Below are positions 1,922 to 39,908 of a stretch of 64,000 nt of DNA, piece by piece (position 1 is the first letter of the stretch; every line of letters starts with the position of its first letter). The stretch lies in NCBI GenBank assembly GCA_011176685.1, contig DUED01000030.1, positions 1-64,000 of the forward strand. Direction: 5' to 3'. The DNA comes from Anaerolineae bacterium. GTDB lineage: Bacteria > Chloroflexota > Anaerolineae > Anaerolineales > Anaerolineaceae. The notes under the pieces were generated by a model. The model worked only from the letters and a program-made list of their open reading frames with translations. It was not told the DNA's origin and made no database searches. A program made the translations under genes and the position numbers.

Positions 1922-2797
1922 ATGCGCTTTGATAACCAGCGCTTGCTTTTATACAGCATTTCAAACCCCGTATTAGATTTTTCCCTTGATTTGCTTTTTT
2001 CAAGAGGGGATGTCTTAACCGCTGTAGTAAAAGAGGAAAGAGAAAAAGCCCTCTGCTTAGTCCATTTAGATAATACAACTGCTCACTTGTCTTTTTTGCT
2101 CACTTCCAATTTGCAATCAAAAGCATCCTTGTTCTTACTGGATGAGTTATGCAAATCATGCGGGCACAAGGGTATCAGACATTTGCTTGCAGATGTAACC
2201 GAGCAACATGATGTAAATGAACTGGTGCGCCAGGTTGGTTTTTCAAGTTATGGTTCACAAAAGATCTGGAAAATCCGTCACATCCTGCAGGAGAGTGCCT
2301 CATCCGATCTAATTTGGCATTTTGCAAGAAAAGACGATTTCCACGCCGTACATTCACTTTATAACCGCCTGCTTCCCCCAATAGAAAAAGCTCTACAACC
2401 CTGGCATTCTCAACGGGATAATTTCCACTATCTTGAACGGTGCAACTCAATAGTGGGTGTGGCAAGGGTGCGCAAACATCTTGATCGGATTATCGTCTGG
2501 CCCCTGTTTGACTCCATCCAAATAGAGGAAACGCAAGCAGTTCTTTTATCTTTAATAGCACGATGGGTAAATGCTCACTATAGCGTATATGTTGCTATCC
2601 GCTCTCACCAAGAACAGCTGGGGGAAGTATTGGAGAGGATAGGAGAGCAGGCGCTTCCCAGGCAAGTTTTAATGGTCAAGCATTTGGTTGAGTTCCATCC
2701 GATAAATCTGCCGGTTGTCAATCAATCAGTAAACAATAAGCGACGGCCTGAACCATCTACACCTTTTGTTCACTCCGAGACTCAAGATTGCCCTTGA
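1922..2797 (+). CDS. GNAT-like N-acetyltransferase fold protein, substrate unknown
   Basis: A 291-residue protein with no name I recognise. Residues about 65-120 read like a GNAT acetyl-CoA-binding segment: a helix-rich stretch, then LLADVTEQHDVNELVRQVGFSSYG, in which 'NELVRQVGF' is the typical end of a GNAT domain. A second, weaker alpha/beta half follows, so it may be a two-domain GNAT-like protein. The tail after about residue 265 is polar and low in structure. It sits between pdxT and the R3H ATPase on the same strand with gaps of 59 and 54 bases. Function is inferred from fold only. Confidence 0.5.
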   Translation: MRFDNQRLLLYSISNPVLDFSLDLLFSRGDVLTAVVKEEREKALCLVHLDNTTAHLSFLLTSNLQSKASLFLLDELCKSCGHKGIRHLLADVTEQHDVNELVRQVGFSSYGSQKIWKIRHILQESASSDLIWHFARKDDFHAVHSLYNRLLPPIEKALQPWHSQRDNFHYLERCNSIVGVARVRKHLDRIIVWPLFDSIQIEETQAVLLSLIARWVNAHYSVYVAIRSHQEQLGEVLERIGEQALPRQVLMVKHLVEFHPINLPVVNQSVNNKRRPEPSTPFVHSETQDCP

Positions 2798-2851
2798 TCA
2801 TTAAACACTCAAATCATGCGGATTTAATGGGATAATGGTATCAAAGGTAGA

Positions 2852-4459
2852 ATGATACAAAAAAGAATTACCGACGATTTACCTGCGCTGTTGGCAGTAT
2901 TACCTGACAACTACACCAGGAAAGTAAAAGAACTTGATAACTTTGATGAACTACTAGAGATCATCCTTGATCTCGGCCGCCAGCCGATAGCACGCTTCAT
3001 TGACCGTGAAGTAGCACTAGATAATGCTGAAGTAACACATGCCGTGATTAATGATGCCGTCTCACGCATTGGTGAGTTTGACGCAGATAACCGTGCAGGT
3101 ATCGAACGCACATTGCATCGAATTTCTGCTATACGGAATAAACATGGGGGCATTGTTGGTCTGACCTGCCGGGTGGGGCGGGCTGTTTACGGCACCATTG
3201 ACATTATCCAAGATCTTGTAGAATCCGGTAAAAGCATCCTGCTCCTGGGAAGACCCGGTATAGGAAAAACAACTATGCTGCGCGAGGCAGCGCGTATCCT
3301 AGCAGAAAAGACGCGTGTTGTGATCGTGGACACATCTAACGAAATCGGCGGTGACGGTGATGTACCGCACCCAGCTGTAGGGCACGCGCGCCGCATGCAG
3401 GTCGCCAAGCCCTCTCTGCAGCATGAAGTGATGATAGAGGCAGTTGAAAACCATAATCCCGAGGTTATTGTGATCGATGAGATCGGGCGTGAGCTAGAGG
3501 CCATTGCTGCCCGCACCATCGCTGAGCGCGGTGTGCAGTTAGTAGCAACTGCCCATGGTCGCACACTGGAAAACTTACTGCTAAACCCTACTCTTTCAGA
3601 CTTGATTGGAGGAATTGAATCGGTTACGCTTTCAGATGAAGAAGCTCGCCGGCGTGGCACACAGAAAACAGTTCTTGAACGACGCGCACCGCCTACTTTT
3701 GAAGTGCTGGTGGAAATTCAAGAGCGTAATCACCTAGTGGTACACACTGATGTGGCATCAGCAGTTGATGCATTGGTACGTGGTTATCCTCTTCACCCAG
3801 AAATCCGAGATCGCGATGAAAGTGGTGAAATTCACATCGAGCGACCATCTCGGCCAGCCATGGTGCTCACGCGAGCACAGGGGCTGCGTCGCCAGAACGG
3901 CAACGACCTCGAAAAGGCTAATAATAGCCGTGGTATAAAAAAAACACAATCCAAGGTAGGTAAACACTCACCAACTAAAATCCAAGCAATTTTGCCATCC
4001 ATTAATATTTTTCCTTACGGAGTAGCACGTAACTGTCTGATACAAGCCACCAAACGTCTAGGCGTACCCGCCAACATCGTCCGCGACCTGGATAGCGCGA
4101 ATATATTGATTACGCTCAAGTCTTATTACCGCCGCCGCCAGAAATCCATCCAGGAAGCAGAAGAGCGCGCAATTCCCATTTATGTGCTGCGTTCCAACTC
4201 CGCCAACCATATAGAACAATTGCTGGTAGAACTATTCAACATTAATGAGCCAGGCATTAATCAGATCCATTTAGAAAAGGTCAGTGCCCAAACTCAGGCA
4301 GCTATTGAAGCCGTACGAAACGGACAGCGCTGGATTGATCTGCCGCCTGCCTCTGCATGGGCACGGCGCATCCAGCACACATTAGCGCGCCAATCCGAAC
4401 TTACCTCACATTCTTATGGCAAAGAACCTAACCGCCATGTACGCATTTTTCGCGAGTAG
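2852..4459 (+). CDS. SpoIIIAA/Ycf45-type AAA ATPase with C-terminal R3H domain
   Basis: A 535-residue ATPase of the family often annotated as single-stranded nucleic acid binding R3H protein. Walker A is GRPGIGKT at 133-140 and Walker B EVIVIDEIG near 204-212. The central part resembles SpoIIIAA and plastid Ycf45. The last ~60 residues hold an R3H-like segment (about RRIQHTLARQSELTSHSYG then NRHVRIF), which binds single-stranded nucleic acid in other proteins. The role in the cell is not established. It lies 5 bases upstream of tmk, suggesting co-transcription. Confidence 0.85.
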   Translation: MIQKRITDDLPALLAVLPDNYTRKVKELDNFDELLEIILDLGRQPIARFIDREVALDNAEVTHAVINDAVSRIGEFDADNRAGIERTLHRISAIRNKHGGIVGLTCRVGRAVYGTIDIIQDLVESGKSILLLGRPGIGKTTMLREAARILAEKTRVVIVDTSNEIGGDGDVPHPAVGHARRMQVAKPSLQHEVMIEAVENHNPEVIVIDEIGRELEAIAARTIAERGVQLVATAHGRTLENLLLNPTLSDLIGGIESVTLSDEEARRRGTQKTVLERRAPPTFEVLVEIQERNHLVVHTDVASAVDALVRGYPLHPEIRDRDESGEIHIERPSRPAMVLTRAQGLRRQNGNDLEKANNSRGIKKTQSKVGKHSPTKIQAILPSINIFPYGVARNCLIQATKRLGVPANIVRDLDSANILITLKSYYRRRQKSIQEAEERAIPIYVLRSNSANHIEQLLVELFNINEPGINQIHLEKVSAQTQAAIEAVRNGQRWIDLPPASAWARRIQHTLARQSELTSHSYGKEPNRHVRIFRE

Positions 4460-12541: not shown

Positions 12542-12961
12542 CTATAAAAAAGACCCTCCAGCCGATAGTTCCACCAGCCCAATCAGCTCTCCATCCGGTC
12601 CCCTGAAATAAAAAAATCTGCCGTTTTTAACCTGTTTAATCGTGCGAAGTGAAATATGGTGGGGTATTTCTGCATGCATGTGCAGGTCAACTCCTGACCT
12701 TTCCAGCCGCTCGATTTCCGCTTCCAGGTCTTCAACGAAAAACGCGATGTGGTCTATAGCGCCATCTAGTGGTGCCGCTGAGTCATCTTTAAACTGAGTC
12801 AGCTCTATAACAGTTTCCCCTCTTTTCAGGAAAGCCCGCCAGTTTCCATCTCCACAAATGGCCTTCTTCTGGACAACTTCAAAGCCAAACGCCTTACAAT
12901 AGAATTTGACGCTGCAGGTAATATCCGCCACCAGCAGCCCAATTAAGTTGATGGAAAGCAT
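12542..12961 (-). CDS. VOC-family (glyoxalase/dioxygenase-like) protein
   Basis: A 139-residue vicinal oxygen chelate protein: an N-terminal LIGLLVADITCSVKFYCKAFGF, a central HIAFFVEDLEAEIERL and a terminal FFYFRGPDGELIGLVEL, the two beta-alpha-beta-beta-beta modules of the fold. Candidate metal ligands are His in DHIAFF and Glu in GELIGL. Substrate is unknown; lyase, dioxygenase and binding functions all occur in this family. GGAGG lies 9 bases before the ATG on the - strand. Confidence 0.85.
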   Translation of the reverse strand: MLSINLIGLLVADITCSVKFYCKAFGFEVVQKKAICGDGNWRAFLKRGETVIELTQFKDDSAAPLDGAIDHIAFFVEDLEAEIERLERSGVDLHMHAEIPHHISLRTIKQVKNGRFFYFRGPDGELIGLVELSAGGSFL

Positions 12962-13015
12962 AAATCTACCTCCTAGCTTTCATTATATGCTAGTCCTGCC
13001 ATAAACCTTAGGTAA

Positions 13016-37037: not shown

Positions 37038-37066
37038 TTGACAAGCAAAAAGGAGACTTCTATAAT
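37038..37066 (+). promoter_or_regulatory. Consensus sigma70 promoter of tRNA-Asn
   Basis: TTGACA at 37038-37043 and TATAAT at 37061-37066 are both perfect and are 17 bases apart. The tRNA begins 11 bases after the -10. Confidence 0.9.
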
Positions 37067-37076
37067 TGGGGAACGT

Positions 37077-37150
37077 TCCTCGATAGCTCAATTTGGCAGA
37101 GCAAGCGGCTGTTAACCGCTAGGTTTCTGGTTCGAGTCCAGATCGAGGAG
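37077..37150 (+). tRNA. tRNA-Asn (anticodon GTT)
   Basis: A full cloverleaf of 74 bases: acceptor TCCTCGA with TCGAGGA, D stem GCTC/GAGC, anticodon stem AGCGG/CCGCT with loop CTGTTAA, and T arm TCTGG TTCGAGT CCAGA. Discriminator G at 37150; no CCA encoded. Its 3' half is repeated at 38919-38955. Confidence 0.97.
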
Positions 37151-37152
37151 CT
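37116..37152 (+). repeat. Left att-like direct repeat (inside tRNA-Asn)
   Basis: Begins with CCGCTAGG of the anticodon stem and ends with the acceptor and GCT. Shares 35 of 37 bases with 38919-38955. Confidence 0.75.
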
Positions 37153-37161
37153 TTTTACCTT

Positions 37162-37199
37162 AAATGACATGTTTCAACTAAACATGTCATTTATTATAT
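37162..37199 (+). terminator. Terminator hairpin after tRNA-Asn
   Basis: A 12-bp perfect stem (37162-37173 with 37181-37192) with a 7-base loop, then an AT-rich tail. It ends the tRNA transcript. Since it lies in the island leader, it could also belong to an RNA partner of the RT. Confidence 0.65.
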
Positions 37200-37325
37200 T
37201 ATCATATAATTGTTTATTAAAAATAATAATTAGTAATAAATATATAGTGAAAAAGATCAAAATGACCAGATTAGGATTATCGCCCAATCGGATTTTTATA
37301 TAATTTAAATAGGTGAACATATCAT

Positions 37326-38828
37326 ATGAAGAAATTAATTGAACTTTCAAATATAGAAGCAAAGTCGCATTTCCTTAAGGGGAGCAGTTATTTCAACAAC
37401 GATTTTCCTAGCTATATAAGCTTTGAACCCATTTTGGTTAATGTTACGGATGTGCTAGATGGAGGGGCCTTTGGCCCATTTCAATCGACGAAGCCAGATG
37501 ATTTTTCGAAGGTTAACTATAATTTCTTATCAAACAAAGATGGAAAGTTCGCTTGGCGACCATTGGAACTTATTCACCCAGCGATTTATGTTTCGTTAGT
37601 AAATACGATATGTGATCCTGATAACTGGAAAAAAATTCAGAAGCGGTTCTCAAAATTTGAAGATGGTATAGTTGAATGCTGTAGCGCCCCTGTTATGTCA
37701 TTAGATAGCCAATCAGATACAGCAAAACAAATAACAAGTTGGTGGAAAAGAATCGAACAAAAATCTATTGAATACTCGTTAAGATTTAGCCATATTCTTC
37801 ATACAGATGTAACAGATTGTTATGGGTCTTTGTACACGCACAGTATTTCATGGGCAATTCATGACAAAAAAGAATCGAAAGAAAAAAGAGCTGATAAATC
37901 TCTTCTAGGCAACAAGATTGATTCGCACATTCGAGCTAGCCGGTGTGGTCAGACAAATGGAATCTCTCAGGGTTCAGTCCTAATGGACTTCATAGCGGAG
38001 GTCGTTCTTGGATATGTCGATGAACGTATAAATTTAAATCTCCCCACTGACAAAAAGTATAATTTTCACATTCTTAGATACCGTGATGATTACAGAATAT
38101 TTGCCAATAGCGATGAACTGGTTGAAAAGATATTGAAGGTAATCAGCAGCGAATTAAGGGAAGTGGGAATGAGGTTAGGAGTATCGAAAACATTCCTAAA
38201 CAGGAATGTAGTTGAAGGTTCAATCAAACCAGATAAGCTGGCATGTATAGAATTGCTAGACTTAGGTGAGACAAACGCAAATACGATTCAAAAACAACTA
38301 CTGAGACTGCATTCGTTTGGTCAACGATTCCCGAATAGCGGGGCCCTCCGGCGATTAGTTAGTGAATTCCATTCCAATATTAATACGATGACCAAACGAC
38401 CTGACGATCTTGAAGTCCAAGTTGCAATTGCTACGGATATTGGTTTCGTTTCTCCAGGAACATTTCCCGCTATTGCAGCTATCTTAAGTCACCTTATTTC
38501 ACTCGCCTCAACGAAAGAAAAATTAGAATTATGGGAGAAAGTGCGTAAAAAGATGGCTCGTGTACCTTATAACGGTTACCTCGAAATATGGTTGCAACGG
38601 GTGGTACAAACGAAAGAAATTGGTTTAAAGTTTGACAGCGTTGAACCAATCTGCAAAATTGTAAATGGTGAAACTTCAGATCTGTGGGAAAACGGATGGA
38701 TCACAAGCCATGACCTGAAGAACGCGCTAGAAGTATCAAAAATCATTGTGGGATCTGTGTCTGATACTGAGGAAGTAGTACAGCCTGAGGAAATTGAATT
38801 GTTTAAACAAAATGCGTGGGTTTATTAA
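37326..38828 (+). CDS. Reverse transcriptase of the Abi/DRT-like (defence-type) class
   Basis: A 500-residue RNA-directed DNA polymerase. Fingers WRPLELIHPAIYVSLV; motif A HTDVTDCYGSLYTHSISWAI with Asp161; motif B NGISQGS at 211-217; motif C YRDD at 252-255; motif D near GMRLGVSKTF. Catalytic aspartates are intact. The YTHSISWAI signature is like Abi/unknown-group RTs involved in phage defence; it is not a group II intron maturase or a DGR RT by sequence feel. Residues 310-500 are a helical domain. No msr/msd, nuclease or nitrilase partner is visible. AGGTGA precedes the ATG. Confidence 0.88.
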   Translation: MKKLIELSNIEAKSHFLKGSSYFNNDFPSYISFEPILVNVTDVLDGGAFGPFQSTKPDDFSKVNYNFLSNKDGKFAWRPLELIHPAIYVSLVNTICDPDNWKKIQKRFSKFEDGIVECCSAPVMSLDSQSDTAKQITSWWKRIEQKSIEYSLRFSHILHTDVTDCYGSLYTHSISWAIHDKKESKEKRADKSLLGNKIDSHIRASRCGQTNGISQGSVLMDFIAEVVLGYVDERINLNLPTDKKYNFHILRYRDDYRIFANSDELVEKILKVISSELREVGMRLGVSKTFLNRNVVEGSIKPDKLACIELLDLGETNANTIQKQLLRLHSFGQRFPNSGALRRLVSEFHSNINTMTKRPDDLEVQVAIATDIGFVSPGTFPAIAAILSHLISLASTKEKLELWEKVRKKMARVPYNGYLEIWLQRVVQTKEIGLKFDSVEPICKIVNGETSDLWENGWITSHDLKNALEVSKIIVGSVSDTEEVVQPEEIELFKQNAWVY

Positions 38829-38918
38829 TTGGAGCAAGTTAGTGATTGACTCTTGAACCATTTTGGTGGTCGCGAGCCCTAGTTTAAAAATGTCATCCTG
38901 TAAGAGCAATGCTTCCTT

Positions 38919-38955
38919 CCGCTAGGTTTCTGGTTCGAGTCCTGGTCGAGGAGCT
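38919..38955 (+). repeat. Right att-like repeat, partial tRNA-Asn 3' end
   Basis: Begins at the anticodon stem and carries the whole T arm and 3' acceptor, but no matching D arm or 5' acceptor, so it cannot be a tRNA. Two differences from the tRNA copy lie in and after the T stem. Confidence 0.75.
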
Positions 38956-39065: not shown

Positions 39066-39908
39066 ATGAAACGCTTTTATATAATTGCTGGTAGCACCGT
39101 ATTACTGTTAGCTATTGTGGCATGTGAATTTTCCCTCAGCCCAAAATCTGAAGAGTCGGCGGGATTAGCACTGCAGGCAGCGATTGATGCGCCCGCGGAC
39201 GGAGTCAGCTTGCCAAAAGAGGCGACGGTTATCAACTACCACGCCACTGCCCCTGACGGGATTGCAGCGGTGGAGTTGAGCATCAACGGCGAGGTGGTCA
39301 GCAATGTGGCGACGCCCGATTCCACCCAGACGCTGGTTGCGCTGCAGTACACATGGAAGGCGACATTGACAGGCAGTCATACTATCCGTGTGAGAGCGCA
39401 GGGCTTATCGGGACAGTGGAGCGATTATGCTGCTGTAACGGTTAACGTAATTGGTGGTGACGATGAAGGAGAAACTGAGCGGCAGGGTGAGCAGGAAACT
39501 CAGCCAACGGATACACCCGAACCAACTGCCACGCCAGAAGGGCTCGAGATCATCAATGTGGAAAACAACGTGGACAAGTTTTATTATAAAAACACAACCT
39601 GTGGCCCTAAAAAGATTACAATAAGTGCGGAAGTTACGCAGCCAGATAAAGTTTATGGATTGTACTTATTCACTCGCTTTGAAGACAAAGAAGGTGAGGG
39701 TATGACCAAGTGGGACCTAGGCCATGTAATCAGTAAGAAAAGCGAAGGCAAATACAGCATTACTTTAGTGGCTGAAAACATATTGAATTACCACACGTAT
39801 GAGTTTGCTTTGATGCACTTCCAGCTTGTAGCCACAGACAGTAACCAAAATCGTATTGCCGCTACTGAAGTGTTCAAGACCAGGGTTACTCTAGAGGTTT
39901 GTCCATAA
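39066..39908 (+). CDS. Lipoprotein with Ig-like/beta-sandwich domain and Thr-Pro linker
   Basis: A 280-residue surface lipoprotein: a signal with lipobox IVAC (Cys20) and an N-terminal beta-sandwich domain (residues about 38-130; VELSINGEVV, LQYTWKATLTGSHTIRVRAQ) of the bacterial Ig-like kind. A PTDTPEPTATPEG linker typical of Chloroflexota exported proteins follows, then a second domain with a disulfide candidate pair (Cys179 and the near-terminal Cys). Function unknown. A GGAGG lies just before ATG. Confidence 0.75.
   Translation: MKRFYIIAGSTVLLLAIVACEFSLSPKSEESAGLALQAAIDAPADGVSLPKEATVINYHATAPDGIAAVELSINGEVVSNVATPDSTQTLVALQYTWKATLTGSHTIRVRAQGLSGQWSDYAAVTVNVIGGDDEGETERQGEQETQPTDTPEPTATPEGLEIINVENNVDKFYYKNTTCGPKKITISAEVTQPDKVYGLYLFTRFEDKEGEGMTKWDLGHVISKKSEGKYSITLVAENILNYHTYEFALMHFQLVATDSNQNRIAATEVFKTRVTLEVCP

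Follow-up and report, generated by a model that had tools for sequence, protein, structure and literature searches.

A lone Abi-P2 family reverse transcriptase gene in a small, integrase-less, CIME-like islet at a tRNA-Asn gene of an Anaerolineae bacterium

Abi-P2, the product of orf570 in P2-like prophages of Escherichia coli, confers resistance to phage T5; its DNA synthesis is primed by Tyr61, which is essential, whereas Tyr46 is dispensable (PMC9508834). Class 1 DRTs are characterized by a helical repeat domain and by untemplated synthesis (PMC13174585). Among mobile elements, CIMEs have kept their att sites and cargo and are devoid of recombination and transfer genes, an example being found at tRNA-Lys CTT of Streptococcus agalactiae; the cargo CIMEs of Streptococcus salivarius span 1.2–13 kb, and gene-free microCIMEs of 130–220 bp also exist (PMC7563491). 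The locus described here bears on both subjects. It lies in a stretch of 64,000 nucleotides from an Anaerolineae bacterium (the whole of which is referred to below as the window), where an islet of ∼1.8 kb at the 3′ end of a tRNA-Asn gene consists of a single reverse transcriptase (RT) gene between two repeat copies. We consider it likely that this is a self-sufficient anti-phage gene of the Abi-P2 family, carried by a minimal, integrase-less, CIME-like element. The features of the locus are as follows, with residue conservation counted over 53 relatives.

37038–37066, + strand: tRNA-Asn promoter, TTGACA-17-TATAAT, matching the consensus at 12 of 12 positions; outside the islet
37077–37151, + strand: intact tRNA-Asn(GTT), the integration target (ARAGORN and Rfam)
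37116–37152, + strand: left 37-bp repeat copy, the 3′ half of tRNA-Asn, attL-like (repeat comparison)
37161–37193, + strand: 14-bp hairpin with a T-rich tail, the tRNA-Asn terminator (terminator scan; homologue in L087)
37311–37315, + strand: probable ribosome-binding site AGGTG, identified by inspection, 10 nt upstream of the ATG
37326–38828, + strand: RT-like DNA polymerase of the Abi-P2 family, 500 residues, intact ORF (PADLOC, 7r08 and predicted fold)
37413–37415, + strand: codon of Tyr30, the counterpart in the alignment of Tyr61, which primes synthesis in E. coli Abi-P2 (conserved as Tyr in 52 of 53)
37806–37808, + strand: Asp161 of motif A (invariant in 53 of 53)
37833–37853, + strand: YTHSISW motif, residues 170–176 (Tyr170, Thr171, His172 and Trp176 invariant)
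38079–38090, + strand: YRDD active site, residues 252–255 (Arg253, Asp254 and Asp255 invariant; Tyr in 52 of 53)
38919–38955, + strand: right 37-bp repeat copy, attR-like, presumably the displaced tRNA 3′ end (35 of 37 positions identical)
39066–39908, + strand: downstream host gene, lipoprotein-like, marking the empty site in relatives, where it directly follows tRNA-Asn (G032, G145, G147 and G148)

The direct repeat is interrupted by two mismatches, assigned to the right copy, which starts 90 bases past the RT stop codon. When the tRNA genes of the draft genome from which the window derives (G000) were scanned in a uniform manner, the tRNA-Asn repeat scored 31 against a background of ∼8–10, and the opposite-strand and reversed-sequence controls gave zero matches. 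Inspection of the ORFs of the window revealed no further plausible gene, no integrase and no transfer genes between the two 37-bp repeats, such that the RT gene stands alone there; G000 is 88% complete with 5.75% contamination, and a helper integrase may escape view. In these respects, the locus is as the initial annotation had it: a lone RT, with no integrase, flanked by a tRNA-Asn and a 37-bp copy of its 3′ end. The lack of an integrase argues for a CIME-like element, which would be moved only by an integrase acting in trans or after accretion.

That the islet is an insertion follows from the empty site preserved in four genomes of one genus within the same family (G032, G145, G147 and G148), a site that had previously been proposed as something to look for in relatives. 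In each, tRNA-Asn is followed, after ∼95–120 bp, by orthologues of the lipoprotein (44–47%) and TetR genes of the window, with no RT. In G032, the promoter region and tRNA-Asn align with the left flank of the islet, its right flank corresponding to what follows the tRNA; the sequence upstream of the window tRNA-Asn, including the promoter, aligns with the empty-site relative L076. Across the family, the RT is present in five of 147 genomes and absent from 142, and the alternative that the same gene occupies the same place in all relatives, without repeats, is contradicted by these RT-free loci. The two repeat copies differ further in their T-stems: that of the left, intact tRNA is paired (TCTGG/CCAGA), whereas that of the right repeat is mismatched (TCTGG/CCTGG), and the last 22 nt of the right repeat (38934–38955) match an empty-site relative exactly. 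Such a pattern would be expected to arise if the incoming element provided a new 3′ end for the tRNA and pushed the original one aside. We infer that it entered the 3′ end of tRNA-Asn by site-specific recombination, supplying both the replacement end and its terminator. Since no second tRNA-Asn is present among the tRNA genes found in the draft genome, the replacement end had to work.

The RT is, by sequence and by model, a member of the Abi-P2 family. It scores 639.6 bits against the PADLOC AbiP2 profile over residues 1–497 of 500 (the next family, UG14, reaches 167.6 bits), and its best solved structure by sequence is E. coli Abi-P2 (PDB code: 7r08; E-value 1.2 × 10−70). The AlphaFold2 model (pLDDT 89.6, pTM 0.90) presents the palm and fingers of an RT together with a helical domain, like 7r08; indeed, the six best Foldseek matches to this model are all chains of 7r08 (TM 0.80–0.85), followed by UG15, AbiK, DRT4 and DRT6. 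These enzymes and DRT3b have the RT domain and a helical C-terminal domain in common with the window RT and supply its next-best matches, although with much weaker scores and as representatives of different families; moreover, DRT3 has partners. DGR and group II RTs are only distant matches in the fold comparison, and the group II maturase match reaches 38.7 bits where the cut-off is 300. The kinship with Abi and DRT enzymes that had been proposed from the sequence is thereby confirmed and narrowed to Abi-P2, and clustering with group II intron or DGR enzymes, raised at the time as the opposing case, is not observed. Asp161 and YRDD at 252–255 also lie where they were first placed, and NGISQGS is at 211–217, within an intact ORF.

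With E. coli Abi-P2, the window RT shares homology over its full length, the predicted fold, the catalytic residues and the priming tyrosine, whereas Tyr46 of the E. coli protein aligns with His15, at a variable position. Both genes occupy a variable mobile context, namely, the variable region of a P2 prophage in E. coli and a tRNA-anchored islet here; the two proteins are ∼30% identical, and the window RT is known here from its sequence and model. By analogy, and with the defence record transferred across this distance of ∼30% identity, the window RT most likely carries out protein-primed DNA synthesis without a template and acts against phage. Such synthesis and a trimeric state count among the features of Abi-P2 RTs. 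The window RT would be an oligomeric polymerase primed by its own Tyr30, making single-stranded DNA independently of a template and bringing phage growth to a stop.

The gene is preceded by a leader of 174 nt, which is AT-rich and contains a strong hairpin at 37161–37193. The initial annotation had recorded a 12-bp hairpin here and suggested that the leader could encode a partner RNA. The hairpin does exist, albeit with 14 bp, but its proposed role does not hold: it scores as a terminator, and in L087, where the tRNA-Asn locus has no RT, the tRNA is directly followed by a counterpart of this region (76% identity over 59 nt), identifying the hairpin as the tRNA-Asn terminator. The leader without the hairpin shows no excess of structure relative to shuffles (z = 0.36); a search of the leader against Rfam gave no match; comparison with the leaders of the 15 closest relatives revealed no similarity; and neither a conserved leader nor a conserved tail is seen among relatives that are 63–74% identical. 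Because the hairpin is a terminator and the remainder shows no excess structure, no Rfam match and no conservation, a partner RNA encoded in the leader appears unlikely, and this candidate was discarded. The length, AT-richness and hairpin of the leader might otherwise have suggested that the RT copies a cis-encoded RNA template, in the manner of the Class 2 DRTs (DRT2, DRT9 and DRT10); given the above, and a family and predicted fold that are of the template-independent polymerase type, we regard this as highly improbable.

In a maximum-likelihood tree, the window RT is one of 16 sequences, drawn from several phyla, that form a supported group (96/98). Its nearest relative, at 74% identity, is encoded by an Abawacabacteria MAG (L003), where three copies of a 130-nt attC-like repeat are disposed around the RT gene. 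Of 51 loci with enough flank, seven (L003, L009, L023, L029, L041, L042 and L046) have a GTT... box before the RT and an exact reverse-complement ...AAC box after it, counting boxes of at least 9 nt, against 0.14 expected from mismatched pairs; this test was refined after inspection of L003 and is partly post hoc, and its mismatched-pair control is low. The Abi-P2 genes with such cassette-like ends (L003:4318–7284 and the six other loci) are mostly from Bacteroidota in this sample. Several family members therefore have the appearance of integron gene cassettes, which points to Abi-P2 as a cargo that recurs in such cassettes. The window islet resembles integron gene cassettes and CALINs in having one gene per mobile unit, but differs in that its ends are tRNA 3′ halves; the attC test of the window found no attC-type R′′/R′ boxes at the islet ends. 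The cassette boundaries of several relatives fit a gene that travels alone and, taken with the absence of an RNA signal and of a conserved leader or tail, they argue that the RT would need no partner RNA or protein in cis. A host function for the RT, unrelated to phage, is quite unlikely: only five of the 147 family genomes carry it, its clade is spread over several phyla, its settings are islands and cassettes, and it belongs to a family with a recorded anti-phage effect.

A second islet of this kind was found in G123 (Anaerolineaceae UBA7927; L013/L100), in which an Abi-P2 gene, encoding a protein 65% identical to the window RT, lies at tRNA-Gly(CCC). An exact 24-bp copy of the tRNA-Gly 3′ end is present 2349 bp away, and the islet contains no integrase. 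The RT gene has the same orientation as the tRNA in the window and the opposite orientation in G123, indicating separate events. Beside the G123 gene is a 201-codon ORF (L013:9610–10215; 201 aa) with a weak HepT-like (HEPN) match, possibly an accessory or toxin-like gene; a helper protein is, thus, conceivable in this islet. In G159, an Abi-P2 gene and the 3′ end of tRNA-Glu are separated by 215 bp; no tRNA-Glu 3′ copy was detected at that locus, which is not counted as an islet.

The scan of G000, which covered the stretches around tRNA genes, found same-strand downstream 3′ copies for six of the 39 tRNA genes scanned. Their cargoes are Abi-P2 (Asn), an aldo/keto reductase (Val), an 8xMP-like membrane protein (Met), an EamA transporter (Leu) and an ArsP permease cluster followed by a second unit (Gly); the tRNA-His copy has no gene close by, and that of tRNA-Val is degraded (78% over 68 nt). 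By comparison, such copies number two for 34 tRNA genes in G123 and zero for 45 in the one-contig genome G017. There is no recognised integrase in the G000 cargo stretches examined, and four tyrosine-recombinase matches occur elsewhere in the genome, one adjoining a tRNA-Met. The islets at different tRNAs in G000 have no end sequences in common, a shared left end being confined to the tRNA-Gly copies and a single copy on contig C29; additionally, the flanking genes of the other G000 islets were not found in the stretches of the relatives examined. The five other copies, several of which bound one gene or a small cluster lacking a recognised integrase, place the window islet in a CIME-like class.

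Two loci of G000 are of interest in their own right. In L165:9929–15030 (G000:C10), tRNA-Gly(TCC) is followed by a fragment comprising tRNA positions 1–54 (12894–12947) and by fragments of positions 57–73 at 13012 and 15014, these last two sharing a left end of ∼140 bp; units appear to have accreted here, their cargo being an ArsP/ArsR/VIT-like cluster. L185:1–3300 (G000:C29) holds fragments of several tRNAs (Met-like, Pro, Val and Asn-like) separated by single genes, namely one with a weak SIR2-like match (1097–2065) and one for an HNH protein (2521–3102), possibly of defence type.

As to how such an islet arises, we give an even chance to its being the dead remnant of a larger prophage, ICE or IME, in which the integrase and other genes were deleted and the RT was left by chance or selection. 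CIMEs and microCIMEs have been described as decayed elements of this sort (PMC7563491), other tRNA copies in G000 are degraded or, for tRNA-His, without cargo, and accretion is visible in the several 3′ copies at tRNA-Gly. Yet neither RT islet retains any remnant of an integrase or mobility gene, both RTs are intact, and the different tRNAs and opposite orientations would require convergent deletions to nearly equal content; a search for deletion remnants found none of an ICE or IME in the window islet, and accretion only at the tRNA-Gly of G000. More tentatively, the islet may be a non-autonomous cassette, one of a set of units of one or a few genes that are moved in trans into tRNA 3′ ends by a tyrosine recombinase targeting tRNAs, supplied by the host or by its phages. 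The frequency of same-strand copies in G000 (6/39, against zero control matches), the prevalence of single-gene cargo (aldo/keto reductase, EamA transporter, 8xMP-like protein and Abi-P2) and the tyrosine-recombinase matches, including that beside tRNA-Met, speak for such mobilization; the lack of shared ends between islets at different tRNAs, of a matched integrase and of any copy among the 45 tRNA genes of G017 speaks against it. Either would be compatible with our preferred description of the islet as a minimal, CIME-like element.

Relatives were also observed to carry tandem units with a period of ∼60–118 bp, which follow a wide variety of tRNA genes (L283 in G003:C1, L285 in G070:C3, L289 in G064:C21 and L281 in G068:C1; also L077 and L073). 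Each unit comprises the 3′ end of the tRNA itself, into the T-arm of which a small, conserved hairpin (CCC-N5-GGG-ATGATA-TTCGANTCC) is inserted. Matches to a loose form of the pattern occur in 88 of the 147 genomes of the family, the controls giving far fewer, and matches to a stricter form in seven of 251 genomes of the phylum, all from the same order. In L281:16437–18600 (G068:C1:2524936–2527099), a tRNA-Ser(TGA)–tRNA-Ser(GCT) pair is duplicated, with approximately five hairpin units of 69-bp period after each. Within G000:C1, closely similar tRNA-His 3′ copies with a T-arm hairpin insert lie ∼23 kb apart (L168:3609–3676 and L293:12070–12140), and the second of these may bound a larger island. 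It is possible, though doubtful, that the lineage sustains an integron-like traffic of cassettes of one or a few genes, which use tRNA 3′ halves as attachment sites and are placed at T-arms by a recombinase acting in trans, the tandem 3′-end units being empty versions; were this so, anti-phage genes such as Abi-P2 would be among the cargo.

Like CIMEs and microCIMEs, the window islet has att-like repeats and cargo, and neither integrase nor transfer genes; it differs in that no ICE or IME stands in tandem with it, its host belongs to the Chloroflexota and its cargo is one defence-type polymerase, such that it is CIME-like by structure, with descent from an ICE or IME putative. A literature phrase search for integrase-less tRNA islands returned no match. 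The Abi-P2 enzyme is already known, but to find it twice in one family next to a tRNA gene, in a one-gene islet devoid of an integrase, is uncommon; each part is known and the combination is unusual. Of the earlier reading, the islet, the kinship and the empty site stand and the partner RNA falls, and it is extended by the assignment to Abi-P2, by the independent islet of G123, by the further tRNA islets of G000 and by the relatives with integron-cassette ends. The other tRNA islets raise the question of what moves integrase-less units. The islet itself is a very small natural package for a defence-type polymerase, in which a single gene with a ribosome-binding site of its own is accompanied by a spare tRNA end, and the two independent RT islets, together with the cassette-ended relatives, suggest that Abi-P2 does not depend on fixed partners in the genome.
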